Assembly: GCA_947649495.1 (NCBI GenBank)
Contig: CANSRU010000004.1
Coordinates: 1-64,000, forward strand
Length of the DNA stretch: 64,000 nt
Direction of reading: 5' to 3'
Source: an uncultured Porphyromonadaceae bacterium
Lineage (GTDB): Bacteria; Bacteroidota; Bacteroidia; Bacteroidales; Muribaculaceae
Notes under the pieces: generated by a model
What the model was told of the DNA's origin: nothing
Seen by the model: only the letters and a program-made list of their open reading frames with translations
The model's database searches: none
Part shown: in pieces, positions 38,320 to 51,873 of the stretch
How the letters are laid out: each line of letters begins with the position of its first letter
Position numbering within the stretch: position 1 is the stretch's first letter
Translations under genes and position numbers: made by a program

Positions 38320-38330
38320 GTTGTCTCGTG

Positions 38331-38591
38331 TTAAAAATCAAAATTGAGGGTATACTGTATTGCTTTCTTTCGTGGGTCGTTGAGGATTTTGTCCACGCTC
38401 TTGGCATGAATGGGACATTCTCCTGTGTAGGGACATTGCCCGGCTGCTGCTTGGAGGTGCGCTCCGTGCCACCGCTCCCATTCTTTCTCTCCGTCTCTCG
38501 TGAGAAAGGTTATCAGCTTCATGCAACCGAAGCCGCGCTCATTCTGCTTTGTGTCGTGAAGCTCGACGATGCCTGTTTCCTGTGGTCTCAT
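38331..38591 (-). CDS. Small Cys/His protein, unknown
   Basis: An 86-aa protein with CPYTGECPIH, a compact possible metal site, and a preceding region (KLITFLTRDGEKEWERWHGA). It shares one base with the upstream stop. Function unknown. Confidence 0.55.
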   Translation of the reverse strand: MRPQETGIVELHDTKQNERGFGCMKLITFLTRDGEKEWERWHGAHLQAAAGQCPYTGECPIHAKSVDKILNDPRKKAIQYTLNFDF

Positions 38592-38857
38592 TATTTACCC
38601 CTCCCGATAAATGCGAGGCGTAGCACGTCGAATGTCCGCCCAATGATGGCAAATTCAAACATAGCCCCTGTGTCGGCTACGTCATTTACTTGTAGGACTG
38701 GATATGGAGAATGCATTGTGTTGATTCTCCAATAATCCACTATTGCGTCTTCATCGACCGTCTTGAAAAAGTGGTCGAGACTTTCGATAAGGCATTTCAC
38801 ATAGTCGGGACTATATGCTTCCGCTATCTTGTCTTGGTTTCGTAGTGCGTATCTCAT
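38591..38857 (-). CDS. Small unknown early protein
   Basis: An 88-aa acidic protein (CLIESLDHFFKTVDEDAIVD; MFEFAIIGRTFDVLRLAFIG). It is located 18 bp after the primase-helicase gene. No family recognised. Confidence 0.5.
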   Translation of the reverse strand: MRYALRNQDKIAEAYSPDYVKCLIESLDHFFKTVDEDAIVDYWRINTMHSPYPVLQVNDVADTGAMFEFAIIGRTFDVLRLAFIGRGK

Positions 38858-38875
38858 CGCTTGCTGTATTTTGTG

Positions 38876-40717
38876 TTAAAATGGTGCTTCCTCATCTGTC
38901 GGGCGCAGCCAATCGTCAAAGTCAAAATGAGCCGCTTCCGCTGCGTCCTGTGCGCGTCTGCGCTCCTCCTCGACAAGATGGTTGGTGTTATCCCATTGAG
39001 GCTCCTGTTCGGGATAATAGGGGGTATAGCGTCCGTTGTTGAGGTTGTATTTCATGAGTGCCGTTCCCGGCTCTCCGAGGTGTCTGAACTTAACCTTTTC
39101 GATGCGTATCTCCACCGTGTTGTTCACGCGGTCGCGGTGTACGACAATACCGAAATCCGCCTTATTGAAAAAGTGCGCCGAGCCGCTGATGTCGTAGAGT
39201 GTCGGAGGGTCTATCTTTCCGTCTTTGTTCTTGGCTGGCTTCGTGGGGTGCGCCATCAGAATGATGAGAATGTCGTGCTGCTGTGCAAAGTTGGTCAGTC
39301 GGTCAAGCAGTTGGCTGATGTAGTCGGTCTCTTTCATGCCGCTCTTTTCGTCTTCGAGGCGGTTGTATGGGTCAATGACAAGAGCCTTGATGCCTTTGCG
39401 CCGGACGAGGTACTTGGCTTTTTCGAGGATTGTGTCCACCTTGTAGTCGCTCGGTGCGATGAAGAAGAAGTTCTGTTCGAGGTGTTCCTTGACTTGCTTG
39501 TACTCCCCGAATGTGAGGTGCTTTTGGTCGAAGTGCTTTCCTGTAAACTTTTCGATCAGCTTACTTGCGTGGTATGCGAGGGGGGCGTTCTCCGGACTAA
39601 AATATGCGAAACGCCAGCCGTACCTCATGTTGAGCCGCTCTGCCATCTCGTCGATGAATTCTGACTTGCCGCTTCCGGGGTAGCCTGTTACCATGCAGAG
39701 ACGCTTGGTCTCAAAGCTGATTAAGCGGTCGACGTTCTCATGTCCCATGACCACTCCTTTCTGCAATCCGAATTCAAAGATTGCGTCGAGGCTCTGTTCA
39801 AAGTCCGAGACCGTGAATACCCCCTCGACCTTGATTTCCGGGGCTTGTGCTATGCAGCGCAGGAGGCTCTCCCTGCCGTGTGCCATGAGGTGTTCGTTGG
39901 CATCCTTGCAGTCCTCTCCGAAATCAAGCACCCGGCATCGGTCAGCTCCGAAGCGTCGTATAAGCTCGTCTCGGAGCATGACACCTTTCGCGTCTGTATC
40001 AACCGCGATGTAGATTGTCTCTTTGTCCTCGAAATAGTCCTCTATGAAATCGTCGAGGTAGTCAAGGTTTGCATTTGCTCCGTTGGGAACGCTGACTACG
40101 TCGTGCCGTCCGACTTCGTAGAAGCTCAAGGCATCCATTTCGCCCTCGACGATGATGCACTCTTTCTTTCCCTTTATTGCGTCGATGTTGTAGGGTATCA
40201 GTTCTGCGCCGGAGCAAAGTTTGAAGCACTTGTCGCCTGTCCTGTATTTCGTGTTGATGAGCTGTCCGTCCCGGTAGTAGTTGAACTGAACCGTATTGAT
40301 TTTGCCGTTCTTCTGCGGCATCCATTCTTCGCCCTCTGTTACCTTGAGGGCTTCGAGAGTCGCTTGGCTGATGCCCCTGCTTGCGAACCATGCGAGTGCG
40401 CGTTCCTCCATCGGTGCGTGTGGCTTCGGGGTGGGTCGCTTGTATTCCGGCTTCTGCTTGCGGATTTGGGCGGGTCTGAACCACGGCTGTCTCTCCATCC
40501 ACTGCTGCTTCTCGCTTTCCGTGGGAACGGCTGCGCATCCGCTGAAACCGCAGTAATGACACTTGAACATACCTGTGCGCATATTGACCGAGAGGCTCTT
40601 GTCTCGCTTGTCTCTGCGTTGGTCGTGGCATTGGGGACAGTATGTCTTGGCATTTGTAGCGTGGCTGTTCAGTCGGCTCACGTCGATGCCGTATTTTTCA
40701 AAGTCGAAGTTGTTCAT
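38876..40717 (-). CDS. Primase-helicase (T7 gp4 / Twinkle type)
   Basis: A 613-aa protein; ATG at 40717 overlaps the initiator stop (ATGA). Zinc-binding CPQC (Cys27, Cys30) and CHYC (Cys53, Cys56), a TOPRIM domain with IIVEGEMDAL (Glu191) and AVDTDAKG (Asp240, Asp242), then a RecA-like helicase with P-loop GYPGSGKS (345-352) and ALVIDPYNRLE and ILMAHPTKP motifs. It primes and unwinds at phage forks, loaded by the upstream initiator. The acidic C terminus ends TDEEAPF, a possible SSB-like tip. Confidence 0.95.
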   Translation of the reverse strand: MNNFDFEKYGIDVSRLNSHATNAKTYCPQCHDQRRDKRDKSLSVNMRTGMFKCHYCGFSGCAAVPTESEKQQWMERQPWFRPAQIRKQKPEYKRPTPKPHAPMEERALAWFASRGISQATLEALKVTEGEEWMPQKNGKINTVQFNYYRDGQLINTKYRTGDKCFKLCSGAELIPYNIDAIKGKKECIIVEGEMDALSFYEVGRHDVVSVPNGANANLDYLDDFIEDYFEDKETIYIAVDTDAKGVMLRDELIRRFGADRCRVLDFGEDCKDANEHLMAHGRESLLRCIAQAPEIKVEGVFTVSDFEQSLDAIFEFGLQKGVVMGHENVDRLISFETKRLCMVTGYPGSGKSEFIDEMAERLNMRYGWRFAYFSPENAPLAYHASKLIEKFTGKHFDQKHLTFGEYKQVKEHLEQNFFFIAPSDYKVDTILEKAKYLVRRKGIKALVIDPYNRLEDEKSGMKETDYISQLLDRLTNFAQQHDILIILMAHPTKPAKNKDGKIDPPTLYDISGSAHFFNKADFGIVVHRDRVNNTVEIRIEKVKFRHLGEPGTALMKYNLNNGRYTPYYPEQEPQWDNTNHLVEEERRRAQDAAEAAHFDFDDWLRPTDEEAPF

Positions 40718-41634
40718 ATCGTTTTCTCCCATTGATTCGTTGTCTCACTCCAATAGTGGGCTTCTGATGGTCTTGGGGGTGCTTGCGGCGGCACAGGCTG
40801 TCCGCTCGTGCCGTAGGTGCGTATTCCTTTGCTGTTGATGAATTCGCCGACACCGAGGCTCTGTGTGCCTTGTACGGGGGGCTGCGCCCTGTCTCTCGAT
40901 GCCCATGTTCGAACGGTCGCTCTCCAGTCTTTCATGGGGTTGCGTCCTACGCGCCAGCCGTTGGAGGTGTAGTAATCCACAAAATGTTCCGGGTCGATGT
41001 TGTAACCCTTTTCTTGGGCGTAAGCTCTGACCTCATCAACCGTGGGGGCGGAAAAACGTGAGGCGGTTTTCTTTTCCCCTTTAGGGGATTTTTCTTTTTG
41101 TTGCTTTACTCTGCTATACTCTACGTTACTCTGCTCTACTATAGGGTTATCTTCGGTTATCTCTTGGGTTATGTTTGGGTTATCTTCCATAACCGGTTCG
41201 GTTGTCCGATAGTATGGATTTGGCTGTCCTTTCTTGAAGTTCGGGTTACCGCCCTTGCGTCCGTTTCTCCGGGCTGCTTCGGCTCTCCTCTGACGCACCT
41301 CAAGCATCCGCACAAAGCGTCTCTTGTGTGCTGCGCTGAATATCTTTCCATCTTCGTGCTGAAGGAGTCCGATTTTCACGCTGTAGTCGATTATCTCCCT
41401 TAGTTCTGCGACAGGCACGTCGAAATCTGAGGCGAGCAGCTCTTGACTGACCTCGTTGTAGTCAAATTCAAAATTTGTGCAATCCGTGAGGTATTCAAGC
41501 ATGAAGCACCACACGGCATATCCTGTGTGGCTGAATTTACGACGCAGGGCTTTGACCTTGATGTCGTTCCTCATGTCTATGTCGTGGCTGAAGTAGTCTG
41601 CTCCGCCGTTGTCGTTATTCTTTTGTCGTGCCAT
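40714..41634 (-). CDS. Replication initiator (DUF4373/DnaD-like, lambda O-like)
   Basis: A 306-aa protein. The N-terminal domain (YFSHDIDMRNDIKVKALRRK; AVWCFMLEYLTDCTNFEFDY) is the Lin1244/Lin1753-like or DUF4373 winged-helix type found in phage initiators. A linker (about 149-176, DNPNITQEITEDNPIVEQ) is encoded by ATAACC iterons, so the origin lies in the gene as in lambda O. The C-terminal part (RAYAQEKGYNIDPEHFVDYY; NGWRVGRNPMKDWRATVRTW) is DnaD-like and may load the primase-helicase downstream. Confidence 0.85.
   Translation of the reverse strand: MARQKNNDNGGADYFSHDIDMRNDIKVKALRRKFSHTGYAVWCFMLEYLTDCTNFEFDYNEVSQELLASDFDVPVAELREIIDYSVKIGLLQHEDGKIFSAAHKRRFVRMLEVRQRRAEAARRNGRKGGNPNFKKGQPNPYYRTTEPVMEDNPNITQEITEDNPIVEQSNVEYSRVKQQKEKSPKGEKKTASRFSAPTVDEVRAYAQEKGYNIDPEHFVDYYTSNGWRVGRNPMKDWRATVRTWASRDRAQPPVQGTQSLGVGEFINSKGIRTYGTSGQPVPPQAPPRPSEAHYWSETTNQWEKTI
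41114..41194. repeat. Iteron cluster inside the initiator gene, probable origin 2
   Basis: Five GGTTAT/ATAACC hexamers start at 41145, 41155, 41167, 41178 and 41189 (10-12-bp spacing, about one DNA turn). They adjoin TAGTAGAGCAGAGTAACGTA on the minus strand. Nearly the same block and hexamers form the intergenic cluster at 24999-25128. In lambda-type phages iterons within O are the origin. Confidence 0.7.
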
Positions 41635-41648
41635 GTCGTGGGTCGGTC

Positions 41649-43025
41649 TTATAGTGTCGCAACAATGGATTTACGCAGCCGCTCGTTCCGGCTGTTCCAT
41701 TCGAAGGTTCGTATCATCCATTGCTTGTAATCTGATGGAATGTCCTTAATTCTTTCCCCTTTGTATTTGCCAAAGGGCATTATTTCGATTGGTGGTTCTT
41801 GTTTCGTATCGATTGCCGTCGTGTCCTCTCTTGTGTACTTGCCGATTTGGTCGATGGGTATGCCGGAGAGAAGCACTCCTCCTGTGCCGAAAAGCCGCCA
41901 CATCTTGCCCTGCTCGAATACCAAGTCTTCAATTCTGCCGAACCGCTTCACGTTCCCTCCGAGGTCAACGATGAGTGCGTCTTCCTTGTCGGGGTCTATT
42001 CGTGTGGCGCGTCCGAGGATTTGGTAATAAAGGGCTATTGAGGCGGTGCTGATACCGAGGACGATGCAGTCTATCTTGGTGTAGTCAAATCCTGTAGAAA
42101 GCACCCGGACATTGAACAGCACCCGGAGTCTCCCTGCCCGGAAGTCTGCGATGTTCTGTTCTCGCTGTGCTTTGTCCATGTCTCCGTAGATGACCGCTGA
42201 ATGTGGATAATGCTCGGAGAGGGCTATTGCGTCCGCTACGCTTGGCGCAAAGGCGAGGATATGCTTTCGGTCGGGATTGCTGTCAAGGGCGCGTATGATT
42301 GCGTCTGTGCCGCCGTTTGCGTCGTATGCTCGCTGTACGCTGTCCTCGGTATATTCGCTCTTGCTGCTGTTGAATACGAGGAGGCTGTCATCGAACCCCT
42401 CGGTCTGGTATCGCAGCTTGCACCAAAATCCGAGGCGCACCATTTCCTGCACCTGTCCTACATGGATTATCTCTTTGAAGAAGTTCCCTTTCTTACTCCG
42501 GCTCGTCAGCATGACAAGTTTGGAGTATGTACCTCCGTCTCTGTCACGATTCGTCTGCAATTTGACCGGGGTTGCGGTTATGCCGAGGACGTGCGTAATT
42601 CCGCTCTCTTGGAGGAAACGTCCGAGCATTGAGTCTGCTTCTCTTGGATAAAGGTGCGCTTCGTCTATGAGCATCTTCGTGAAGCCGTGTCTCTTGAATT
42701 CCGCACCGAGGTTTTTGATTGAGCCGATGGTCGCGTATGTAATCTGTGCCATCTCTCGTTTCCCGAAGCTCGCGCTGTAAATCCCGGCATTGCTCCCGAA
42801 GCCACCGCAGAGGGTATCGTACTTTCGGAAGTTCTGCTCAAGCAATTCTTTTGATGGCTGGAGGACGATGAGCTTGTCGGTCGTGTTCTTTGCCACAAAA
42901 GCCGTGAGGATTGACTTGCCCCATGCCGTCGGCAGGACTATGAGGCTCGGCTTCGGTTTCTTCTCTTGGAAGAAAGCGATTGCTTTGCGTATTGGTTCTT
43001 CTTGGTTTTCCCGGAGTGTAATCAT
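41649..43025 (-). CDS. SF2 DEAD/DEAH helicase (UvsW/SSL2-like)
   Basis: A 458-aa protein; ATG at 43023-43025 (MITLRENQEEPIRKAI) is preferred to longer readings. Motif Q/I: RENQEEPI and PTAWGKS; II: LIDEAH; III: ITATP; VI: QILGRATRIDPDK. A C-terminal PFGKYKGERIKDIPSDYKQW resembles the DUF3820 putative DNA-binding motif. It may act in recombination-dependent replication. A 9-bp closed RNA element lies upstream at 43041-43117. Confidence 0.85.
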   Translation of the reverse strand: MITLRENQEEPIRKAIAFFQEKKPKPSLIVLPTAWGKSILTAFVAKNTTDKLIVLQPSKELLEQNFRKYDTLCGGFGSNAGIYSASFGKREMAQITYATIGSIKNLGAEFKRHGFTKMLIDEAHLYPREADSMLGRFLQESGITHVLGITATPVKLQTNRDRDGGTYSKLVMLTSRSKKGNFFKEIIHVGQVQEMVRLGFWCKLRYQTEGFDDSLLVFNSSKSEYTEDSVQRAYDANGGTDAIIRALDSNPDRKHILAFAPSVADAIALSEHYPHSAVIYGDMDKAQREQNIADFRAGRLRVLFNVRVLSTGFDYTKIDCIVLGISTASIALYYQILGRATRIDPDKEDALIVDLGGNVKRFGRIEDLVFEQGKMWRLFGTGGVLLSGIPIDQIGKYTREDTTAIDTKQEPPIEIMPFGKYKGERIKDIPSDYKQWMIRTFEWNSRNERLRKSIVATL

Positions 43026-43040
43026 TTCGTAAAAAAGTAA

Positions 43041-43117
43041 TGCTCCGCAGGTAGGGCTAACCACGCACTACAGCCGCGTCGGGAGTCCTTTCGGTCTTCC
43101 CACCCATGTGCGGAGCA
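43041..43117 (-). ncRNA. Structured leader candidate before the helicase gene
   Basis: TGCTCCGCA and TGCGGAGCA form a perfect 9-bp closing stem around a 59-nt interior that can form GGGA...CTCCC and GTAG...CTAC helices on the minus strand. The 3-prime stem arm is followed by a T-run (ACTTTTTTACG), then the ATG. A cis-acting RNA or attenuator is possible. It does not match any riboswitch I recognise. Confidence 0.5.
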
Positions 43118-43181
43118 AATATTTTCATTCTTTTTCATGTCGTCGTTTCGGTTATCGCAACCATGTATGATTGGGAGGTAA

Positions 43182-43388
43182 TCACTTTTGTGGTTGCTTT
43201 TGCTTCTTGTCGAGCTTTGATTCCACCGGGAGCGTCTGCTTGCGCTCCAGCTTCTTTGCAAGGTTAAGTGCCATTCTACGGGCGTTAAACTGCGTTGTGG
43301 TGCGCATTCCACGTTCTTGGAGCATAGAAGCGTATGCTCTGATGAATTCGACCGCTTTGTCCCGGTCTGCGTTGGAAATGCCAATCAT
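43182..43388 (-). CDS. Small unknown basic protein
   Basis: A 68-aa helical, Lys/Arg-rich protein (DKAVEFIRAYASMLQERGMR; RRMALNLAKKLERKQ) ending in KKQKQPQK. It is between the YqaJ nuclease and the helicase. It may bind nucleic acid; no family recognised. Confidence 0.5.
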   Translation of the reverse strand: MIGISNADRDKAVEFIRAYASMLQERGMRTTTQFNARRMALNLAKKLERKQTLPVESKLDKKQKQPQK

Positions 43389-43414
43389 AACCCTATCTGT
43401 ATATCTCGGTTTTG

Positions 43415-44365
43415 TTATTTGAGCAGAAGTCTTCGCGCTCCCTGTACTTGGTGCGTGTATGCGGCAGCAAGGTCGGGGTGTTCGGCGACAAAGGCTTTAT
43501 CGTCGAATTTGTTGCTTGGCTTCGGGGCTTTCCATGTGGCGATGGTGTCTCCACCGTAGGAGAGTGCTTCTGCGTCTTCAAAAGCCATCTTCAGGGTTGC
43601 TTCAAGACTTTCCTTGCGCTCCTTGAGTGCGTCGAGTTCTTTCTTGACCACCTTGAGGTCTTGGTATGCCGAGAAGACCTCCTCGCTACACTCGATGATT
43701 TTCCCTCCTGTGTGGCGATTGTATTTGATGAGAACGTCGGCTACGTTGACCGCGCTGGGTTCTTGACCTCCTACGATGTTGTCAGTCCAAAAGCGCGAGA
43801 CGGAGTCGATGAGCCACTCGAAGAAGTCAGGCACGAGCTTGAGGTCTTGGTATCCGAAATCGAAACCTTGTCCGGCTGAAAGCCATGCGAGGCTACCCTG
43901 CGTATATCCGGCTACACCGAGCTGATACTGCACCTGCGCAAACCAATATTTAGGGAGGTCTTCCGGGTCAACTTTCATGCGCGTGGTCTTGATTTCGAGG
44001 ATGCCCTTATTGTCGTTGGCTCGGCTATCGTCTGAGAGCCAATAGGTGCGGTCGGGGCTTACTTGGAGATAGGGACGGTCGTTGTCTCGGATAATCCAAT
44101 CGATCGCGCTGCGCTTGATGATTTCGCGTCCTGTCGCGTCGTTCCACATCCGGCTGACTGCGTCTTCGAGGTGGTGTCCGTTGCGCATGGCTGCGTTCTC
44201 CTGTTTCGGCTCGTCGAGTCCTGTCTTGCGTCTCCATAGTTGGTAGGGGGTCTCCCACGGGTTGAGTCCTACGATTGTGGCAACCTCGGAGCTGCCGATT
44301 CCGCTCTTGCGGATTTCGAGCCATTCTTCACGGCTCTTGGGTCTGATGATGGTTACGTTGCTCAT
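43415..44365 (-). CDS. YqaJ-family recombination exonuclease
   Basis: A 316-aa protein; ATG at 44363-44365 (MSNVTIIRPKSREEW). The YqaJ/lambda-Exo core is visible: GIGSSEVATIVGLNPWETPY, NGHHLEDAV (Glu), SPDRTYWL (Asp) and GILEIKTT (Glu, Lys). It resects double-strand ends for annealing by a partner protein, probably the 45031-45963 product. A DGR target gene separates the two. Confidence 0.9.
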   Translation of the reverse strand: MSNVTIIRPKSREEWLEIRKSGIGSSEVATIVGLNPWETPYQLWRRKTGLDEPKQENAAMRNGHHLEDAVSRMWNDATGREIIKRSAIDWIIRDNDRPYLQVSPDRTYWLSDDSRANDNKGILEIKTTRMKVDPEDLPKYWFAQVQYQLGVAGYTQGSLAWLSAGQGFDFGYQDLKLVPDFFEWLIDSVSRFWTDNIVGGQEPSAVNVADVLIKYNRHTGGKIIECSEEVFSAYQDLKVVKKELDALKERKESLEATLKMAFEDAEALSYGGDTIATWKAPKPSNKFDDKAFVAEHPDLAAAYTHQVQGARRLLLK

Positions 44366-44424
44366 TGTGCTGATGTCTTTTTTGAGGTTATGAAATGGGG
44401 AGAGCCGAAGCCCTCCCCGGTGGA

Positions 44425-45024
44425 TTACTTGCAGAATAGGTTGAAATCCATCCAAAGGTCGATGAAGGTCTTCCCGGCGTAGTCCGCGAGCTTGTCGCTC
44501 TTAAAGCAAAGGCGAGAGCCGAAGTACGCATCCGAAAGCGAGGGGGCGGCAGCCGAGCCCGCATAGGCGAGACCCGCCCATTCCCCTCGGTGGTACTGCA
44601 TCGTAGTGAGGTGGCGGTCACGCTTCCATTCTTCGCTCTTTTCGGCGAGTTCCTCGTCTGTGTAGAGGAAAAACCACGGATACCATCGTTCTTCGTCCTG
44701 CGTGAACTGAGGCTCCCAGCCCTCGTTGAGTGCTGCCGTGATGATGCGGAGCTTGAGGTATGCGACCACGTCGTTGTTGACGTTTGCTCCGGCTTTCTCG
44801 CTTTTGTCGTAGATGTCTCGGAACATCTGAACGTAGAGGTGGTCTTCGCCGAGTTCTGCACAGGCATCCGCGAATGTCTTGATGCGTTCCGTTACCGGGC
44901 GGTTGTCTGCCGGAGTGAAGTCGATGTCGGGGTAGAGGGTTTCGAGTACTTTGCAGGTGCTGTCTGCTCCTGTCTCTTTGGCTACGTTGTACGCCTTGAT
45001 GATGTTTTCTTTTGTCGTTTCCAT
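44425..45024 (-). CDS. DGR target 2: early-region protein with remote variable repeat
   Basis: A 199-aa protein: acidic helical N terminus (IIKAYNVAKETGADSTCKVL), a conserved middle (YLKLRIITAALNEGWEPQFT; RWYPWFFLYTDEELAEKSEE), then the VR2 segment (WAGLAYAGSAAAPSLSDAYF) and a fixed tail (GSRLCFKSDKLADYAGKTFI). Unlike target 1, 26 residues follow the variable segment. The last part resembles the lectin-like end of target 1 (GSRLCF). It lies between exonuclease and annealing-protein genes, 6 bp below the latter, so it is expressed early. Its role is unknown. Confidence 0.8.
   Translation of the reverse strand: METTKENIIKAYNVAKETGADSTCKVLETLYPDIDFTPADNRPVTERIKTFADACAELGEDHLYVQMFRDIYDKSEKAGANVNNDVVAYLKLRIITAALNEGWEPQFTQDEERWYPWFFLYTDEELAEKSEEWKRDRHLTTMQYHRGEWAGLAYAGSAAAPSLSDAYFGSRLCFKSDKLADYAGKTFIDLWMDFNLFCK
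44504..44577 (-). repeat. DGR variable repeat 2 (VR2), 36 kb from the RT
   Basis: A 74-bp partial copy of the TR 3-prime end. By hand alignment about 15 positions differ, all at TR adenines of the coding strand, plus the single C-to-T in the IMH that VR1 also has. Both VRs share GCTCTCGCCTTTGCTTT where the TR has GCTCTCACCTCTGCTTA. Identity then breaks off sharply at 44577. Confidence 0.9.
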
Positions 45025-45030
45025 GTTCTT

Positions 45031-45963
45031 TTATTTTTTGGATGATTTCTTGACTTTCTTTACCTCCCCGGTTTCGGGGTCTATTTCTTCAGCTTCGACA
45101 TCCTCAACCGCCGGGGTAGCAGGGAGGGGGGCTTCGCCTGTTGCAGCAGCGAGGGCAGCCGCCGCTTTGTCCTTTGCTGTGGTTGCGTTCTTGACCGCTT
45201 CCGCTGCCGCCTGTGCTTCTTTCTCCGGGTCGATGAATGTTTCCTTGACCGTGGTCGTTCCCTCCTCTATGGCATTGCGGAGGGCGCGGAGTTCGAATAT
45301 CATCCGTTGGTCGATTTCCTCGATGCTCTTGACACCGAGGTATCGGAGCAACTGGTCGGTTTTTACCCCCACGCGGTTGTAGTAGGCGATGACGTTCTTG
45401 CGGCTCTGTTCGAGGTCGATTGATTGACCCATTGCCACCGCCTTGACATCATTGATGATTTTCTTGGTTATGGCTTTGGGAATGACTGCGAGGACTGCGT
45501 TTCGGAAGGCGATGCTGCTTGCTGCGTTCCCGGTCACAATCTGCATATCCTGTGAGTAGGTCTTGCCTGTGCGCGTAGTGATGGAGCGTGAGACCTCTTT
45601 GCAGACCGCTACGTTGCTTTCGAGGTCATGGCACATCGCCTGTGCTGTTATCATGCGTCCGTCGTTGCCGATGATTCGTGTCTGAATTCGGAGGTTGCCC
45701 CATGCGGAAGCGATGATTTCTGCCATTCGGACTGACAACCCCTCGATGAGCGAGTCGTTGCCATCTCTGTCCTTACGTCGGAGGACGTAGAAGCAGTCTT
45801 CTGCCGTCTCCTTGTCCATCTTGGCGAAGGTGGCGATTTTGTTCAGCACCTGTGACAAATCGCGTGGGTACTGCTTGGCGGTGGCTATCTGCATATCCAC
45901 CTCGGTGCGGTTGATTGCTGCGAGCATCTCAGCTTGTTTTACTTCGATGATTTCATTTTCCAT
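45031..45963 (-). CDS. Probable single-strand annealing recombinase (RecT/Rad52-like)
   Basis: A 310-aa protein with KDRDGNDSLIEGLSVRMAEI, WGNLRIQTRIIGNDGRMITA and FRNAVLAVIPKAITKKIIND, a common phage pattern next to YqaJ exonucleases. The C terminus is a Lys/Ala/Glu-rich flexible tail (AAEAVKNATTAKDKAAAALA). A beta-rich core with helix flanks would suit an annealing protein. Assigned by the exonuclease pairing; which superfamily is not certain. Confidence 0.6.
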   Translation of the reverse strand: MENEIIEVKQAEMLAAINRTEVDMQIATAKQYPRDLSQVLNKIATFAKMDKETAEDCFYVLRRKDRDGNDSLIEGLSVRMAEIIASAWGNLRIQTRIIGNDGRMITAQAMCHDLESNVAVCKEVSRSITTRTGKTYSQDMQIVTGNAASSIAFRNAVLAVIPKAITKKIINDVKAVAMGQSIDLEQSRKNVIAYYNRVGVKTDQLLRYLGVKSIEEIDQRMIFELRALRNAIEEGTTTVKETFIDPEKEAQAAAEAVKNATTAKDKAAAALAAATGEAPLPATPAVEDVEAEEIDPETGEVKKVKKSSKK

Positions 45964-45996
45964 TTTGAATGGGTTTTGTGGGGTTTATAAATTGGG

Positions 45997-46401
45997 TTAG
46001 ATTTTCCGTATGGGGGTCGCGGTCATGATTCTGTACCACTCGATGCCGTCCTGTTCTGTGGGTTTGGCGGCAAGGAGGAAGGTTGCAGATTTCTCTGCTT
46101 TGACCGAGTCGAGGATTTCGATCGCGGCGGTTTTGTATTGCGCCCGGTATCCGCTTGTCGGCTTGCCTTGCGCCTGGAGCTTCATGCCGTCCAGCTTTTC
46201 CCCAAATGCGACGTACCAATCGTTGCGGCTCTCCTCATCTTTGGCGATAAGGATTCTTGTTTCGTTGGTCAGTCCGAGTTCTCGGATGCACTTGCTGTTG
46301 AAGCTGAAATAGCCACCTTTCCTGTTCGCGTTCACGAGGCGTTCCTGTGACTGCGGAAAATTGCCGCCTCCGTGCGCTCTTTTGATAATCTGTAGTTTCA
46401 T
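45997..46401 (-). CDS. Unknown early phage protein
   Basis: A 134-aa protein (GGGNFPQSQERLVNANRKGG; TRILIAKDEESRNDWYVAFG; AAIEILDSVKAEKSATFLLA). Likely alpha-beta. It is directly upstream of the annealing protein gene. No named family recognised. Confidence 0.55.
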   Translation of the reverse strand: MKLQIIKRAHGGGNFPQSQERLVNANRKGGYFSFNSKCIRELGLTNETRILIAKDEESRNDWYVAFGEKLDGMKLQAQGKPTSGYRAQYKTAAIEILDSVKAEKSATFLLAAKPTEQDGIEWYRIMTATPIRKI

Positions 46402-46414
46402 ATAGGTTGAGGGT

Positions 46415-46933
46415 TTAAAGTGCGACAGCGGCGAATTCTCGGCGTGTCTGCGTGATTATTCTGTTGGTCGTGTTGTTGATTGCAGTTGTGCCTATCCCGA
46501 AGGTGTCCGTAATATCCCGGCAGGAAAAGCCGAGCAGTCGGAGTTCAAGGATTCGCACGTCTCTGCGTGGGAATGTCGCCCGGATATGTCGTTGTATTTT
46601 TGCGACAATCTTTTCGGTCGAGGATTCTTCCGGCGCGTCTTCCATAGGGTCTGCGTCTTCGGAAGGAAGCAGAGAGAAGAACAACTCGTCGGGATGCCAT
46701 GTGGAAAATGTCTCGCTGAGGTTCTTCCCGGAAAACTTGCGGTATGCTTTCATGAAGGCTACCTCGTAGCCGGCATGGTCATCTTCTGTCTCTGCAGTAG
46801 TGGCGAGGGTTAGGTATGCGTCTTGAAATGCGTCCTCGTCAAATGCCGTGTAGAGGCTCAGTTTCTGTTTGAGCGCAGATGCGTTCTTGCAAATCCACTC
46901 GTTTAATGATACTGTGTGCATGGCTCTTTTCAT
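46415..46933 (-). CDS. Sigma-70-like regulator, candidate late activator
   Basis: A 172-aa protein; ATG at 46933 overlaps the upstream stop (ATGA). The N-terminal half contains AFDEDAFQDAYLTLATTAET, like sigma region 2 in Bacteroidetes phages. The C-terminal part (RRDVRILELRLLGFSCRDIT, DTFGIGTTAINNTTNRIITQ) is a region-4 type helix-turn-helix. It is the only sigma-like gene and so a candidate for driving the late promoters; that link is an inference. Confidence 0.7.
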   Translation of the reverse strand: MKRAMHTVSLNEWICKNASALKQKLSLYTAFDEDAFQDAYLTLATTAETEDDHAGYEVAFMKAYRKFSGKNLSETFSTWHPDELFFSLLPSEDADPMEDAPEESSTEKIVAKIQRHIRATFPRRDVRILELRLLGFSCRDITDTFGIGTTAINNTTNRIITQTRREFAAVAL

Positions 46934-47220
46934 TTGTGGGTTGCTACATAGGTCTGCGCTTTGCTGTTTATCTCTCGCTGCGTTAAGACCTTGTTCTCGG
47001 TCATCCATGCTTCGAGTTCGTCTTTCTTGAAGTAGAGCTTGCCGTTCTTCTTGTAGTGTGGTATCCTCTTTTCACTCGTGAGCGTGTAGATGCCCTTGAC
47101 GGTGTATCCTGTCAGCATTGCCGCTTCCTCCACGTCGATGACGTTCTTTGCGGCGAGGAGTGTCGCGGTCTGCAATTGGTCGAACCGCCGCTCCATGTAG
47201 TCTCGTATCTCGCTTGTCAT
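46930..47220 (-). CDS. HTH_17 / excisionase-type DNA-binding protein
   Basis: A 96-aa protein with the MerR-like excisionase domain: IDVEEAAMLTGYTVKGIYTL, TSEKRIPHYKKNGKLYFKKD, ELEAWM. A short helical N-terminal extension precedes it. In this family members act as recombination directionality factors or as regulators; a role in prophage excision is plausible. Confidence 0.75.
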   Translation of the reverse strand: MTSEIRDYMERRFDQLQTATLLAAKNVIDVEEAAMLTGYTVKGIYTLTSEKRIPHYKKNGKLYFKKDELEAWMTENKVLTQREINSKAQTYVATHK

Positions 47221-47223
47221 GGT

Positions 47224-47454
47224 TCAGTCCTCCTCGTCTTCTTTGATTTCCGGGAGTAGTCCCTTTTTGTTGAGCCATTTCCCGGTGCGGAAACAAAGCC
47301 AAAGGCTTGCCATTGCTGCGAGCTTCGAGCCGAAAAACTTTAAATCGCTCATAGGCTGTCCGGGGATGTCCTCTCCGGCGAGGATAAAGAAAGAAATAAC
47401 CGCCCAAATACCCAGCAGACTCAGCCGGATGTTCTGTTTTGTCTTGGCTTTCAT
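47224..47454 (-). CDS. Small two-helix membrane protein
   Basis: A 76-aa protein with hydrophobic helices at about residues 10-26 (LSLLGIWAVISFFILAG) and 44-58 (LAAMASLWLCF), and an acidic tail (IKEDEED). It is close-packed in the early operon (ATGA overlap at 47451). Function unknown. Confidence 0.5.
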   Translation of the reverse strand: MKAKTKQNIRLSLLGIWAVISFFILAGEDIPGQPMSDLKFFGSKLAAMASLWLCFRTGKWLNKKGLLPEIKEDEED

Positions 47455-47684
47455 ACCGTCTCCTCCTGTGCGTTGTATCGTTCCTCCACTCGCTTCAAAA
47501 TCACATAAAGCGTCGCGTTGGAGCGGATGTTATATTTCTGCATCAGATACTTGTTGACCTCGGTTCGGCTCTGCCCCTCGATAGAGACAAGGTCGTTATA
47601 CTCTTTGAAGACTGCGAGGTCTCGTGCTTCGCGCTCCTCTTGAAGCGCGGTCTTCTTTCGAAGTTGAGGTGTTGTCTGTTCCAT
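47451..47684 (-). CDS. Small helical, possibly DNA-binding protein
   Basis: A 77-aa protein with a helix-turn-helix-like second half (SRTEVNKYLMQKYNIRSNAT, LYVILKRVEERY). Common in Bacteroidetes phages as a short early regulator. The tRNA-like element lies right upstream in its leader. Confidence 0.55.
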   Translation of the reverse strand: MEQTTPQLRKKTALQEEREARDLAVFKEYNDLVSIEGQSRTEVNKYLMQKYNIRSNATLYVILKRVEERYNAQEETV

Positions 47685-47709
47685 TTTATCGGTACTTTAA
47701 ATTCTTGTT

Positions 47710-47776
47710 TGGTAGAAGGGGCAGGATTCGAACCTGCTGCGCCGAGGTTTCATGTCGGTTCTCCGCAGACCCTCCC
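47710..47776 (-). ncRNA. tRNA-like element (degenerate tRNA-Phe or structured RNA)
   Basis: The minus strand has a perfect T arm GCAGG-TTCGAAT-CCTGC, an acceptor strand CCCTTCT and ACCA. GGGAGGG (47770-47776) or AGAGGGG further upstream can pair with CCCTTCT. With the first choice the body is only 67 nt, the D arm is truncated and the anticodon loop ATGAAAC (GAA, Phe) has a stem mismatch. The whole 189-bp gap 47685-47873 has further hairpins (CCGGC/GCCGG, CGCCGG/CCGGCG). It may be a relic or a functional tRNA-like RNA. Confidence 0.45.
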
Positions 47777-47873
47777 GAAATGCCGCCGGGCTTGCAATTC
47801 CGGCGACGGTTCTTATGTTTTGCCTTTCGGCTTTCCCGGCTCTCTTGCCGGAGGATTGCCCCTCTCTTGGGGT

Positions 47874-48140
47874 CTAACCCTGTATCGTGAATGTCTCCTC
47901 AAAGGCGCAACCGTCTATCTTGGCGCAGTATGTCAATTCGTTACGGGCGGCAAGTATGAGCATCCTGTTGGTTGAAAAGAAGAAGAAGTCCTGCGCTCTC
48001 GCTCCGCGCACCTCGTATCCGTGGCGGTCTTGGTCGTACTTGATTGCTGTGATTGTGAATGCCGTGAGGCTTCCTGTAAAGCCGTCGTGGTAGCTTATTT
48101 TCTTGCCCACGAGTCCGTTGATGTCCGCTGTCTGTCCCAT
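47874..48140 (-). CDS. Small unknown early protein
   Basis: An 88-aa beta-rich protein (LVGKKISYHDGFTGSLTAFT; ITAIKYDQDRHGYEVRGARA). A 3-bp gap separates it from the gene upstream. No family recognised. Confidence 0.55.
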   Translation of the reverse strand: MGQTADINGLVGKKISYHDGFTGSLTAFTITAIKYDQDRHGYEVRGARAQDFFFFSTNRMLILAARNELTYCAKIDGCAFEETFTIQG

Positions 48141-48143
48141 GTC

Positions 48144-48554
48144 TTATCGGAGATTGTCGGTTATGTATTCGTTGTCTGTCTCGCTCAGTGCGAAGCCTTT
48201 GTGCAGTTTCCATTTGATGCAGTCCTTGCGTCCGATGAGCGTGGCTGCTATCTTGTCGATCGCGTCTGCCGAGGCTTCCATGCCGCCCTGTCTGATTTCG
48301 TCGGCTTCCCGGAGCAGAGCATGGGCTGTGCTTTGTATCTTTGTCTCTTGGTCGCGTATCCATATCGATTGGCTGTTGACCCTATCTCCGAGTGTTTCGA
48401 TGATGACGCTTCCTTTGTGCTTCTTGTAGTCCGCACAGAATGCGTCCTTATCAAGGTTTCCGGCGTTCAGGTAGATGGCATCTGCTGTGGCGTATTCTTC
48501 ATCCGAGCAAAAGCCGAGGTATCCCATTCGGGTGCTGTATTCTTCGATTGTCAT
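48144..48554 (-). CDS. Unknown early protein
   Basis: A 136-aa acidic helical protein (YSTRMGYLGFCSDEEYATAD; TKIQSTAHALLREADEIRQG; DAIDKIAATLIGRKDCIKWK). It is the second gene of the leftward early operon. Function unknown. Confidence 0.55.
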   Translation of the reverse strand: MTIEEYSTRMGYLGFCSDEEYATADAIYLNAGNLDKDAFCADYKKHKGSVIIETLGDRVNSQSIWIRDQETKIQSTAHALLREADEIRQGGMEASADAIDKIAATLIGRKDCIKWKLHKGFALSETDNEYITDNLR

Positions 48555-48565
48555 AGTTGTTTCGG

Positions 48566-48788
48566 TTATGCGTTCTTGTCGTTTAGCTCGTCTTGGTTCT
48601 CAGCTACCTCCCATGTCTTGCCGGGGTTCAACTTTTCCATTCGTGCCTTTACGTCTTCAGGAGAATTCTCCGAGCCGGAGAATTCGTAGAAGGTGGGCTT
48701 GGCATAACGCTCGCCATTGTTCTTAATGCCGTAGAGCCATGCTCCTTTAGGCTGTCCGTTGCGGTTTTTTTGTCTTGGTCGGTCTCAT
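48566..48788 (-). pseudogene. First early gene, frame broken at an A7 tract
   Basis: ATG at 48786-48788 reads MRPTKTKKPQRTA and stops. Removing one base of the seven-A tract (about 48765-48771) instead joins it to an open frame, MRPTKTKNRNGQPKGAWLYG and on to ...KLNPGKTWEVAENQDELNDK NA at 48566, 73 residues that look like a real protein. Either a phase-variable or slippage-decoded gene, a recent mutation, or a sequencing error in the homopolymer. Confidence 0.55.
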
Positions 48789-48828
48789 ATTCTTTTCAGT
48801 TAAATTTCCGTTTTTAGTTCTTTATTTG

Positions 48829-48836
48829 TATCTTTG
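48829..48836 (+). promoter_or_regulatory. Rightward promoter of the lysogeny genes
   Basis: TATCTTTG matches the TAnnTTTG -7 consensus and faces the repressor-like gene at 48940. The predicted start (about 48843) makes a leader of about 97 nt that contains the operators. Confidence 0.55.
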
Positions 48837-48861
48837 CGCGTTCTTTCTTTTGGACGCGATG

Positions 48862-48869
48862 CAAAGTTA
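48862..48869 (-). promoter_or_regulatory. Leftward early promoter
   Basis: TAACTTTG on the minus strand is a -7 box reading into the early operon. Its -33 region (TTTG about 19-20 bp upstream) overlaps the operator palindrome at 48879-48892, so a bound repressor would silence early genes. Confidence 0.65.
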
Positions 48870-48878
48870 AACAAATTG

Positions 48879-48913
48879 TTTGGAATACCAAATAAAATGT
48901 TTGGAAATATTAG
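48879..48913. promoter_or_regulatory. Lysogeny operators (TTTGG...CCAAA)
   Basis: TTTGGAATACCAAA (48879-48892) is a near-palindrome with 5-bp arms. A half site TGTTTGGAAA follows at about 48899-48908. A third palindrome, CCAAATATTTTGTTTGG, lies within the repressor-like gene at 49081-49097. Repeated operators around the repressor gene suggest cooperative autoregulation. Confidence 0.55.
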
Positions 48914-48939
48914 TGTTAAAGAAAGTTAATAAATACATT

Positions 48940-49413
48940 ATGACTGAAACAGAAAGACTTAGGGCAGTATTCGACTATCTTCGTGAGAACAAGATAGTTC
49001 GCAACCAGCAGGACTTTGTCGAGCGCATCGGCTCTGACAAGTCCACGGTATCTCAAATCTTAAATGGTCGCATTCCTATTCCAAATATTTTGTTTGGAAA
49101 GGTGGTCGCTGCCTTTCCGCAGTTTGATGAAGGGTGGTTGCGTTCAGGCGAGGGTTCGATGCTTAAACCGTCTGTGCAACAAACCTCGTATGGCGACCAT
49201 TCTCCGAATGTAAACGGCGACGGCAATCATTTCGGGGGCTGCGCGTCTATTGACCGGGCATTTACCACTCTCGACAATTCTTTGGCTCAAAATGCTGCGA
49301 TGCTTAAGACCCTTGATGCCGCCCTTGCCGAAATCGCCGCCCAGCGTGAACTCGTGGCTCAGTCAATGGCTCAGACCGCCATGCTCATTCAGTTGCTCCA
49401 AAATCAAAAATAA
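48940..49413 (+). CDS. XRE-family phage repressor (CI-like)
   Basis: A 157-aa protein; ATG at 48940. The N-terminal helix-turn-helix (NQQDFVERIGSDKSTVSQIL, NGRIPIPN) is followed by a Gly/Asn linker and a long helical C terminus (AAMLKTLDAALAEIAAQREL) for oligomerisation. There is no LexA-type Ser-Lys peptidase, so induction would not be by self-cleavage. It lies beside the operators and faces away from the early operon. Confidence 0.75.
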   Translation: MTETERLRAVFDYLRENKIVRNQQDFVERIGSDKSTVSQILNGRIPIPNILFGKVVAAFPQFDEGWLRSGEGSMLKPSVQQTSYGDHSPNVNGDGNHFGGCASIDRAFTTLDNSLAQNAAMLKTLDAALAEIAAQRELVAQSMAQTAMLIQLLQNQK

Positions 49414-49419
49414 CCCGGT

Positions 49420-49857
49420 ATGGAAAAATTGCTATTTGCGGTTGTTGCCGTCATATCGCTCGTCTGTTCTGCACAGACCTCTAATGAAACGAAGACGAGT
49501 GTTGATGCGCTTAAATCCTCTATCCCATATCCCAAATACAACATAGGAGATACGCTGTTTATCGCCTTTATCAATGACCCGGAGGTTGCTGCTGATGCCG
49601 CTCGTTCTGCTGATGTGAGCGTCTCCAAAGTCCGCATCGTAGAGATGATGCTTTATAATACTTTTGGAGGTAAGGACTACCATAAGGGGGTATTTCTTAA
49701 TTCTCCTGTCGAAGAGTTTCCTCTAAAATGGCAGTATCAGTTTCTCGATGTTTCGCTTCAAAATCCGAAATATGGAGACCGCTCGGAATTCCAAGATGAA
49801 GACCGCTTTTTCTCAAATCCCGAAGATGCCGCTTCATCTCTAATAAGTCAGCAATAG
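49420..49857 (+). CDS. Exported protein in the lysogeny region
   Basis: A 145-aa protein with a signal peptide (MEKLLFAVVAVISLVCSA, cleavage near residue 18-19) and a soluble body (YPKYNIGDTLFIAFINDPEV; VSKVRIVEMMLYNTFGGKDY). Expressed next to the repressor, it is a candidate lysogenic-conversion or superinfection-exclusion factor. No family recognised. Confidence 0.6.
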   Translation: MEKLLFAVVAVISLVCSAQTSNETKTSVDALKSSIPYPKYNIGDTLFIAFINDPEVAADAARSADVSVSKVRIVEMMLYNTFGGKDYHKGVFLNSPVEEFPLKWQYQFLDVSLQNPKYGDRSEFQDEDRFFSNPEDAASSLISQQ

Positions 49858-49947
49858 TTATTTTACTCAAAAATCGCCACACGGCGCGTTTGTTGTCTTT
49901 CGTGGGTGCTTGTTCCACCCGAAGCCAAACGGCGCGACACGCGGCAA
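49855..49947 (-). ncRNA. Repeated structured intergenic leader, copy D (antisense)
   Basis: The minus strand has CGTGTCGC, GGGTGGAACAAGC and GGCGATTTTTGAGTAAAATAAC, matching copies A-C. The closing arms GCCGCGT and GTGTGGC pair with G-U wobbles. Unlike the others, its orientation is opposite to the flanking rightward genes, so a transcript would run antisense into 49420-49857. Confidence 0.5.
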
Positions 49948-49962
49948 AACAAAGGCTATCTC

Positions 49963-50442
49963 ATGAATAATCGTCTTTTGGATATAATCAAGTATAAAAC
50001 CGGTGGTCGGCAGAAAGCTTTTGCCGAGCTTCTCGGTTGGACTCCTCAGTATCTCGCCAAGTTGTTGCGCGGCGATAATTTCGGGTTGCAGCCTGTGTTG
50101 ACCCTCTTGGAAAAACTGCCGGAGATAAATGCCCGGTGGCTGCTCTTGGGTGTGGGCGAAATGCTGAACGATGATAAAGTTTTCGGTCTTCGACGGGAGA
50201 CCTATTCTCGTGTGCAGTCTATCCTCATGTTCGACCGCTTCCTGTCCGTAATGTCTCCCGACGAAATCCATCGCTTTGAGGAGGTCTTGAGCGGCCAGTC
50301 CTACCCGGACTTCTCGGACGAGGAGGTTGCCCGGTGGGAGGCTCTGCTTGCTGAACGTCGGCAGTCGCTCGACGCTCGTGTAGATGATGCAATCGCTAAA
50401 TCTGTAACGCCATGCAAACACCCGAAAGTCAAGCAATCGTGA
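49963..50442 (+). CDS. DNA-binding lysogeny regulator
   Basis: A 159-aa protein; ATG at 49963. It has an HTH-like N terminus (DIIKYKTGGRQKAFAELLGW, TPQYLAKLLRGDNFGLQPVL) and the sequence NARWLLLGVGEML, a WLL-G segment shared with other Bacteroidetes XRE regulators (WLRSGEGSM in the repressor). Probably a second regulator. Confidence 0.7.
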   Translation: MNNRLLDIIKYKTGGRQKAFAELLGWTPQYLAKLLRGDNFGLQPVLTLLEKLPEINARWLLLGVGEMLNDDKVFGLRRETYSRVQSILMFDRFLSVMSPDEIHRFEEVLSGQSYPDFSDEEVARWEALLAERRQSLDARVDDAIAKSVTPCKHPKVKQS

Positions 50443-50684
50443 AGCGGTTCTTTGCCGCTCTCTATCGTCTGAAGGAAGACCGAAAAATCCGGGGCAAGCA
50501 GACCTTTACTCGTGAGTATGGTATCAATCGGTGGAACTTGAACACATTGGAAAAAGAGCCGGAGCGCGACATCTTTCAAGTGTCATGGCTCTCGTATCTC
50601 GTGAGGGACTATGGCGTGTCTCCCATGTGGCTGCTTACAGGCTTCGGGGATTTCTACACAAAAAAAGCGGAGACCATTCGCTGA
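50412..50684 (+). CDS. Small HTH-like regulator
   Basis: A 90-aa protein overlapping the previous gene by 31 bp. It has REYGINRWNLNTLEKEPERD and VSPMWLLTGFGDFY, again the WLLtG-type segment of the two regulators upstream. The three proteins may be diverged relatives from duplication. The stop codon lies in the loop of the terminator at 50664-50694. Confidence 0.65.
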   Translation: MQTPESQAIVKRFFAALYRLKEDRKIRGKQTFTREYGINRWNLNTLEKEPERDIFQVSWLSYLVRDYGVSPMWLLTGFGDFYTKKAETIR

Positions 50685-50694
50685 CCTCCGCTTT
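50664..50694. terminator. Bidirectional terminator between lysogeny genes and integrase
   Basis: AAAGCGGAG and CTCCGCTTT form a 9-bp stem with A- and T-runs on either side. It separates the rightward regulator gene and the convergent integrase gene. Confidence 0.8.
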
Positions 50695-50697
50695 CCG

Positions 50698-51873
50698 TTA
50701 TTTCTTGCTTTGCTCGTCTCCTGCGATCGGCAAAATCGGGGGGATGAGCATTGCTGCTTCTTGCTTCTTCTTATCCATTACCTTTGCGTAGATTTGGGTC
50801 GTGTGGATTTCCTTATGTCCGAGGAGCTTCTGCACCGTGTAGATGTCCGCTCCGAGGTCGAGCATCATCACGGCGAAGGTGTGCCGTCCGCTGTGGAACG
50901 TGATGTCTTTCGTTATTCCTGCCCGGACTGCCCATCGCTTCAACTCCATTAGGTAGTACGAGGAATAGGAAAAATTCGGGAAGACGTGGTCTTCGGGATT
51001 GCGTCGCTTTCCCATGAAAGCCACTGCCTGTGGGTTGATGTCGATGTATTCCTGTCCGCCTGTCTTCTTCTGCTTGAAGACAATTCTCGTGAATTCTCCC
51101 TGTTGCCGTACCTCGCTCCATTTCATCTTTTCGATGTCGCTCTTGCGCAGTCCTGTAAGGCACGAAAAGAGGAAGGCGTTCCGAAGCACCGGGTATTTGC
51201 ACTCTGCCGCTGCCATTGCTCTGACCTCGTCAAGCGTGAGGTACACTCGCTCTCGTTCTTCGAGCTTGAACCCCTCTATACCTCGCAGGGGGTTCCGGGG
51301 TATGATGCCGTCCTCAAAGGCTTGGTTGATACAGGCTCGGAGTTTGTTGAAGTACGACACCTTTGTTGCGTTGGATATCGGTTTCATGTCCTCGGTTGTG
51401 GTAGCTTTCTTCCTCTTGTCTCTGACACGGGCAGTCTTGTCGAGGTAGTCCTTAAACCCCTGCACAAATGCCGGGGTCACGTCTCTGAACGTCATGTCGG
51501 GGCGGCAGTATCTTTCGAGGTGCTTGAGTGCGCTGTACCAATTTCCCCAATTACCGAGGCTCTCCGGGTTCTGATGCCGTCTCTCGCAGAGCATCCTGTA
51601 ATAGTCGAGAAAGTTGGTGTCAAGTTTGTAGCCGTCCTCGAAACCGAAGCGACCGTTCTGAAACTCGACCACTCTCTGCGCCCGGACTGCATCGGCAAGT
51701 TTGAGGGTCTCTTTGTTCTTCTCCTTGTCTGCTCTTGTCTTCTCCGGCACAAGATAGAGGTTGAGGAACTCGTAGCTCCGCTTGCCGTTCATGTAAATGT
51801 CGAGGTAGAGGGAGATGTTGCCGTTCCGCAACGCTCGCTTTCGGATGCGGATTGGTTCTTTCGATTTTTCCAT
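50698..51873 (-). CDS. int: Tyrosine-recombinase integrase
   Basis: A 391-aa protein; ATG at 51871-51873 (MEKSKEPIRIRKR) is chosen because longer readings run into the arm repeat. It has an N-terminal arm-binding domain, a SAM-like core-binding domain (DYYRMLCERRHQNPESLGNW) and the catalytic domain with TGLRKSD (Arg), a KQKKTGG Lys, HSGRHTF (His-x-x-Arg), LLGHK (His) and QIYAKV (Tyr). This fits the Bacteroides conjugative-transposon/phage type. The att core is about 200 bp away. Confidence 0.95.
   Translation of the reverse strand: MEKSKEPIRIRKRALRNGNISLYLDIYMNGKRSYEFLNLYLVPEKTRADKEKNKETLKLADAVRAQRVVEFQNGRFGFEDGYKLDTNFLDYYRMLCERRHQNPESLGNWGNWYSALKHLERYCRPDMTFRDVTPAFVQGFKDYLDKTARVRDKRKKATTTEDMKPISNATKVSYFNKLRACINQAFEDGIIPRNPLRGIEGFKLEERERVYLTLDEVRAMAAAECKYPVLRNAFLFSCLTGLRKSDIEKMKWSEVRQQGEFTRIVFKQKKTGGQEYIDINPQAVAFMGKRRNPEDHVFPNFSYSSYYLMELKRWAVRAGITKDITFHSGRHTFAVMMLDLGADIYTVQKLLGHKEIHTTQIYAKVMDKKKQEAAMLIPPILPIAGDEQSKK

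Follow-up and report, generated by a model that had tools for sequence, protein, structure and literature searches.

A remote second target of a diversity-generating retroelement, in a recombination-region gene of a Muribaculaceae prophage, and its relatives in Bacteroidota phages

Phages whose diversity-generating retroelement (DGR) has two targets are known (PMC10743442). In Quimbyvirus, one of the two targets is distal and not a tail gene, the substitutions are adenine-only, and C-type lectin domains are reported for both targets (Benler et al. 2021, PMC8008677); the Bacuni phages of Bacteroides uniformis have one of two targets in a distant gene (PMC8143477), and four gut prophage species carry a distal, non-tail second variable repeat (VR) near counter-defence genes (Nature 2025, PMC12629997). 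Roux et al. 2021 note that their own approach would miss remote targets. Here we analysed a stretch of 64,000 nucleotides from an uncultured Porphyromonadaceae bacterium (Muribaculaceae; assembly GCA_947649495.1, contig CANSRU010000004.1, positions 1-64,000), which we call the window. It holds a prophage with a DGR whose reverse transcriptase (RT) and template repeat (TR) lie beside a tail-protein gene with a first VR (VR1), and a distant gene for a 199-residue protein of family phrog_11581 with a second one (VR2). An earlier note on this DNA, which had proposed VR2, implied that such a target lacked precedent; this does not hold, as Benler et al. and PMC12629997 describe distal second targets near counter-defence genes.

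The anatomy of VR2 is that of a DGR target. A repeat finder returned one family of 75-base repeats in the window, at 8778-8852 within TR, 9383-9457 within VR1 and 44503-44577 (VR2), and no fourth copy was found genome-wide at E ≤ 0.001. On the minus strand, VR2 departs from TR at 17 of 75 positions, 16 of them TR adenines and one a C-to-T change; the latter and the A-to-T change of the last base are also present in VR1, and both lie in the end resembling an initiation of mutagenic homing (IMH) site. The match that the earlier note had put at 74 bp, with about 15 adenine differences and one IMH change common to VR1, is thereby confirmed. The adenine-tolerant alignment of VR2 scores 59 over 79 bases; in a scan with the 75-base TR, all other sites in the window score at most 8 and 10 block-shuffled windows reach 8-13. 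A DGR-type RT (matches to phrog_1423 and RVT_1) is present in the same element as the VR2 gene, on the same strand and about 36 kb away. We regard this anatomy, and targeted mutagenesis of VR2, as almost certain.

Natural variation points the same way. An IMG/VR metagenomic contig (G001; 52,116 bp) is an excised form of the window prophage, with position 41 joined to 52085 through a 15-base overlap. Over the 52,045 bp compared, the two copies differ by 39 substitutions (17 in VR1, 12 in VR2 and 10 elsewhere), a 12-base deletion and one insertion, and all 29 changes in the VRs are at TR adenines. TR itself is unchanged over a 117-base query, the surroundings of VR2 show no difference in 1322 positions, and the 8 amino-acid changes in the target protein all fall within residues 154-167. 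Because 29 of 39 prophage-wide substitutions lie in the VRs, all at TR adenines, we conclude that VR2 is truly diversified in nature: it is not fixed and its changes are at adenines, which upholds the earlier claim of a second, remote, diversified target outside the tail module. Away from the DGR, G001 lacks 12 bases at 23604-23615 and has its insertion near 33702, within a DNA methyltransferase frame (33483-34922).

Closely related loci extend this comparison. In seven close pairs with a known TR, the VR differences at TR adenines and the differences outside were, respectively, 12/12 and 0/1322 (window/L006), 14/14 and 0/1315 (L093/L091), 14/14 and 109/1291 (L093/L096), 17/18 and 13/1053 (L113/L116), 11/12 and 5/1233 (L173/L174), 17/20 and 231/1118 (L128/L127), and 16/17 and 136/1231 (L142/L133). 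Eleven further pairs were compared without a known TR. One of them (L105/L106) has 14 differing sites, all inside 42 bases of the gene; four (L010/L012, L009/L107, L007/L008 and L162/L165) have clusters in the VR segment and also differ in other places; each of L012/L013 and L143/L144 shows 2 differing sites, of which two and one, respectively, fall in the VR segment. The VR is a hot spot in most close pairs, not in all, and the remaining four are taken up below.

The same pairing of TR and target recurs across the phrog_11581 family, which we found in 12 of 393 genomes of the same order, in 3 of 395 genomes of a phylum-wide draw (the window's own, G259, and G750 from outside the order) and in 8 phage records, Hankyphage not among them. 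In 9 of the 12 genomes and in phages LoVEphage, Versailles and BT-TP2, the family gene holds the VR of an RT-linked TR, giving 13 gene-TR pairs, each with 11-22 differences at adenines and 0-2 at other bases; one contig (G309) carries two prophages, each with a target that matches its own TR, and cross-scans between them were empty. For eight further family genes or loci no convincing TR was found in the stretches scanned, one of which (G355a) later matched with the full TR. Viral relatives were the best 80 of 158 from one query plus 21 from another. Leaving G001 out, a DGR RT is present on 30 of the 36 viral contigs of at least 39 kb that carry the family, and a TR-VR pair in 29 of them (30 of 31 RT-bearing contigs with G001). 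In these pairs 453 of 760 TR adenines are changed, against 26 of 2409 other positions, the latter a lower bound because the scoring forgives adenine differences. The weak pairs are G412 (5 other differences, 13 at adenines), G414 (4 others) and G410 (3 others), and not all pairs are independent: G001 is the window phage, and G425 looks like G309's prophage pair. RT and target share a strand in 25 of 29 cases, at a linear distance of 10.5-75 kb (median, 33.7 kb). Named hosts (16 loci on GTDB contigs) include Alistipes, Phocaeicola coprocola, Bacteroides, Muribaculaceae, Segatella copri, Barnesiella and Prevotella, and the labels also include two metagenome-assembled genomes labelled Ruminococcus and Clostridia.

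In a mispairing control on 20 of the 30 pairs, cognate scores were 48-105 and those of 40 mispairings 11-47; the top mispaired scores nearly reach the lowest cognate one, which may reflect related TRs. With C, G or T tolerated instead of A, cognate pairs score 24-83, probably through VR1 or shorter-stretch matches. That VR2 might be a chance repeat was rejected on the adenine-tolerant scans, the shuffled windows and these mispairings. Of the 1007 TR codons in the target's frame, 281 are AAY and only 9 could turn into a stop, whereas the other two frames have AAY at 2 of 1011 and 10 of 1014 codons. Across the match, 97 of 99 loci keep the frame intact. An alignment of VR1 was obtained for 27 of the 30 phages, and in 26 of these VR1 and VR2 share a 3' end unlike that of TR (in the other, G422, the aligned stretch stops short). 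Within one phage, VR1 and VR2 differ at 10-24 sites, mostly TR adenines, and have therefore been mutated separately.

As to the setting of the gene, the earlier note placed it between exonuclease and annealing-protein genes. The exonuclease is borne out, a RecE-like gene being the next in transcription after the VR2 gene (phrog_434, E 2e-75); "annealing" describes only the position of the gene on the other side, whose family, phrog_3657, has no named function; RecT (phrog_148) occurs on that side in relatives. Among neighbours picked by hand at 80 dereplicated loci (same-strand frames, mostly one or two genes off and a few three; 111 of the 230 upstream frames listed and 114 of the 214 downstream ones), we found upstream 19 metal-dependent hydrolases of phrog_392, 15 members of phrog_3657, 12 NinB and 8 RecT, and downstream 18 RecE-like exonucleases, 8 DnaD-like helicase loaders and 4 replisome organisers of one family; many of the neighbours belong to no named family.

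The phrog_3657 module occurs also without the family gene, which lies nearby in 23 of the 56 loci examined out of 59 (the window's own phage left out), and this provides a control for the association with RTs. With L281/G443 (RT present, weak family matches) dropped beforehand, an RT accompanies the family gene on 31 of 37 contigs (G001 included) but phrog_3657 alone on only 4 of 14 contigs, these being of at least 27 kb (Fisher p 0.0003); the figures are 31 of 37 against 4 of 9 from 39 kb upward (p 0.025) and 28 of 31 against 4 of 9 from 45 kb (p 0.008). These p values are indicative only, because the contigs are fragmentary, are related by descent and came from different queries. The gene thus occurs mostly with a DGR, a point on which the earlier note had suggested its proposal could fail.

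Some Mu-like prophages carry a DGR in the early operon itself. G355, a complete-looking Mu-like prophage on a 49-kb contig that also has terminase, portal, major head, tail sheath and baseplate hub genes, shows the order transposase (phrog_310), MuB-like protein (phrog_296), ATPase, DUF3164, two phrog_11581-type genes, TR, and RT. Its two VRs, with 13 of 21 and 15 of 20 adenines changed and no other difference, both lie in the phrog_11581-type genes, and no VR was found outside these on the whole contig, tail genes included. The same series, from MuB-like protein, ATPase and DUF3164 through two family genes to TR and RT, is present in G108 (a fully scanned 15.8-kb contig on which no transposase was seen), and L318 (17.7 kb of a 30-kb contig) has transposase, MuB-like protein, ATPase, two family genes, TR and RT, with one VR aligned (13 adenine and no other differences). 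As G108 and L318 are fragments, both may have a tail VR elsewhere. In G750, three family-type genes hold the sole VRs in the 60 kb scanned, with changes at adenines only; a DUF3164 gene is nearby and no Mu transposase was found. Further searches for Mu-like relatives yielded L318 only; in the phage collection nothing turned up other than LoVEphage-type records.

The 199-residue product matches the phrog_11581 profile over nearly its full length (residues 2-197 on profile positions 5-193 of 200, E 1e-63) and has no strongly hydrophobic segment (maximum 19-residue mean hydropathy, 0.74). A crude hydropathy test found a signal-like N-terminus in none of 97 intact relatives, some of whose matches begin inside the gene, and one segment above 1.6 in each of three. 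Searches with 46 members gave only weak Pfam matches (DUF5008, 2 members, 0.007; DUF4088, 1 member, 0.01), none in NCBIfam and two single-member matches (0.002 and 0.003) in PADLOC, which covers defence systems and not their inhibitors; by sequence, the PDB holds no credible match for the family. The VR segment (residues 144-177) matches the C-terminus of tail family phrog_5302 (E 0.0024), and the profile match shows no homology beyond these residues. Two loci (L071 and L072, from G110 and G259) are longer at the C-terminus by about 130-150 residues of unassigned kind.

Our best explanation, which as a whole we consider probable, is that one DGR serves two targets, the adjacent tail protein through VR1 and the distant phrog_11581 protein through VR2. 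By analogy with the BPP-1 DGR, TR RNA would be reverse transcribed with errors at adenines, and the cDNA would replace the VR from the IMH. The VR2 protein would act within the cell soon after infection or induction, and its variable surface near the C-terminus would bind a host component that differs between hosts, our best guess being a defence or DNA-processing component. We are confident, short of certainty, that the product is a non-tail early protein, because of the recombination-gene setting and because early-operon DGRs were found without a tail VR; the preference of the earlier note for a non-tail role is likewise favoured by relatives that often sit among recombination or replication genes and are the sole kind of target found in Mu-like prophages. 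Gene order suggests early expression, from an operon separate from that of the RT; combined with N-termini that do not look like signals and with Mu-like phages in which VRs were found in such genes only, it points to early intracellular action. The host-interaction or anti-defence role suggested in the earlier note would be a further step, as no family or PDB sequence match names a function. A variable host partner would be the simplest reason for diversifying this protein, and we hold its existence to be evenly balanced. The wider proposal is that phrog_11581 is an early intracellular class of DGR-diversified proteins across Bacteroidota phages, served by a distant tail DGR or, in some Mu-like phages, by a dedicated early-operon DGR, and able to evolve its binding to a varying partner in the host (defence or DNA-processing); this remains tentative, and we would place it a little short of even.

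Several observations weigh against this explanation. The recombination-module setting applies to only part of the neighbours. BPP-1 requires a hairpin after its VR (PMC3240598) and none is evident after VR2, where the best stem is 4 bp; a hairpin concealed in the coding sequence 3' of VR2 was considered and rejected, as stems after the VR in 56 sequences (mean 4.25, expected 3.84) barely exceed those of synonymous-codon shuffles, with 2 of the 56 below 0.05 when taken singly. One and the same VR2 is carried by all three metagenomic contigs of the window phage, so two VR2 states have been observed, not four, and four near-identical pairs (L119/L121, L150/L151, L101/L102 and L101/L103) have a two-base difference each and none in the VR segment; VR change is therefore not constant.

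Family members without a detectable DGR also exist, in three of the 12 genomes and on 6 of the 36 viral contigs. The RT is absent from genomes G274 and G075 and on other contigs only in G294, with no TR in the stretches scanned; in G274 a contig end is about 6 kb away from the gene, and in G075 the whole contig measures 7.4 kb. Among viral contigs, no TR was found in G396, G397, G404, G416 and G426 (whole contigs) or in the part of G421 that was scanned (base 79,001 onward). Compared with L162, the G426 gene has 16 differing sites packed into 75 bases of the VR segment and 2 outside it, a clustering that makes it probable that the phage has an RT which this contig does not include. In G423, which has an RT, neither family copy has a TR match in the stretches scanned; with their diverged VR segments, these two copies and G404 may be true non-DGR members. 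A second copy in G110 (G110b), beside the true target, has no TR match either.

Known phage DGR targets are mostly tail proteins (PMC12629997), and the VR2 protein might accordingly be a second virion or adsorption protein encoded among early genes, with VR2, like VR1, varying the binding to receptors. In Versailles the homologue carries the label "tail protein", and the VR segment resembles the phrog_5302 C-terminus; however, this likeness is limited to the VR segment, which may itself explain the label, the relatives sit among recombination, replication or transposition genes, and the early-operon DGR of G355 has no VR found in the tail genes, so that we consider a virion role unlikely. Alternatively, the protein could counter other phages, in superinfection or prophage competition, the variable partner then being a rival's protein. 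Hosts often carry several DGR phages, as G309 does with its two prophages, and the genome of the window has a second DGR-type RT outside it (G000 contig C1, 26597-27961). Yet no link to immunity or exclusion was found, and in the isolates examined the gene lies away from the repressor, with DNA-processing genes as neighbours; we judge this quite improbable.

It is also conceivable that the DGR lands on VR2 passively, overwriting a copied stretch again and again without benefit, given that an IMH and a hairpin suffice to direct a DGR to a foreign gene (PMC3240598) and that VR1, TR and VR2 have sequence in common. Such a site would be hard to reconcile with the same position in one family across diverged phages, the intact frames, the asparagine codons of TR in the target's frame with so few stop-prone ones, and the DGRs for which phrog_11581-type targets alone were found, and we regard it as very improbable.

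The coordinates of the prophage, its DGR and the VR2 gene region are collected in Table 1. The phrog_19665 gene between VR1 and TR, in a possible accessory-gene position, has no Pfam match and was not identified as Avd. Just 3' of VR1 there is an inverted repeat (GACCCT.GCTCC ... GGAGC.GGGTC; 9320-9365, minus strand), perhaps a DGR hairpin or a terminator; none of that size comes after VR2. Elsewhere in the prophage, a tRNA-Gly gene (ccc; 18984-19058, minus strand) lies among tail-side genes, and a 921-residue head-morphogenesis-type protein (26787-29552, minus strand) also matches ADP-ribosyltransferase family phrog_3895 in its C-terminal residues 779-906. Just outside the prophage are two tandem related open frames (61098-62243 and 62458-63666, plus strand) with repeats 73-81% alike.

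Table 1. Features of the prophage, its DGR and the VR2 gene region (window positions; E values are profile matches)
Feature	Position	Strand	Evidence or remark
Prophage	41..52085		bounded by 15-base repeat at 41-55 and 52071-52085; metagenomic contig G001 joins 41 to 52085
DGR reverse transcriptase, 356 aa	7564..8634	-	RVT_1 E 9e-12; phrog_1423 E 6e-108
Template repeat (TR)	8778..8894	-	8778-8852 common to VR2; homology with VR1 extends to 8894
122-aa gene, phrog_19665 (no named function)	8921..9289	-	between VR1 and TR
First DGR target, 480-aa tail protein	9371..10813	-	phrog_5302 E 5e-132
VR1	9383..9499	-	against TR over 117 bases: 20 adenine and 1 other difference
RecE-like exonuclease	43415..44341	-	scanned stretch, frame open to 44455; YqaJ E 1e-23; phrog_434 E 2e-75
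Second DGR target gene, 199 aa (no named function)	44425..45024	-	open reading frame; phrog_11581 E 1e-63
VR2	44503..44577	-	gene residues 150-174; 17 differences from TR
IMH-like 3' end of VR2	44503..44520	-	same as VR1's, unlike TR's
phrog_3657 gene, annealing-protein position	45031..45963	-	phrog_3657 E 4e-63
Integrase	50698..51936	-	phrog_1 E 7e-58

Phage DGRs have been explained mainly as receptor-switching devices, and the phrog_11581 pattern departs from that. Some phages appear to spend targeted hypermutation on a protein that probably acts inside the cell, sometimes with no other target found; if our explanation is true, targeted hypermutation works there rather than at the receptor. 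The pattern hints that related viruses, too, evolve fast against something inside the host cell, and it raises the question of which host or rival molecule varies enough to need an evolvable binder. Where surveys scan only next to the RT, phrog_11581 is the family to look for.

Compared with described systems, the window DGR has the TR, VR, IMH and adenine mutagenesis of the BPP-1 DGR and its target Mtd (PMC3240598), and the VR2 gene differs from the BPP-1 target, a tail fibre (PMC6199706). The Treponema denticola DGRs also have targets remote from their core, in a bacterium and not in a phage early gene (PMC4891356). Hankyphage, a Bacteroides phage, combines a Mu-like transposase with a DGR whose target is of unknown function and whose RT has two adjacent repeats (PMC6199706). 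Both Bacuni targets are described as adhesion-type proteins (PMC8143477). In LoVEphage (OY731433) the RT is split into three pieces, methyltransferases and a tRNA ligase lie close to the distal gene, and that gene, a phrog_11581 member, holds a VR with 19 adenine and no other differences. LoVEphage is very likely the same phage as Quimbyvirus, whose distal target is thus probably phrog_11581, given the three-piece RT and the distal VR in LoVEphage; the Quimbyvirus paper stresses defence-related neighbours (PMC8008677), whereas the window gene adjoins a RecE-like exonuclease. In the part of PMC12629997 drawn on, neither the protein family nor a Mu-like early-operon DGR is named, and among the open-licence papers examined none described the pattern at family level or a DGR in an early operon, while a search on the family name matched no paper. 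What the present comparison adds to these systems is one protein family, its early-module setting and DGRs that are apparently dedicated to it.
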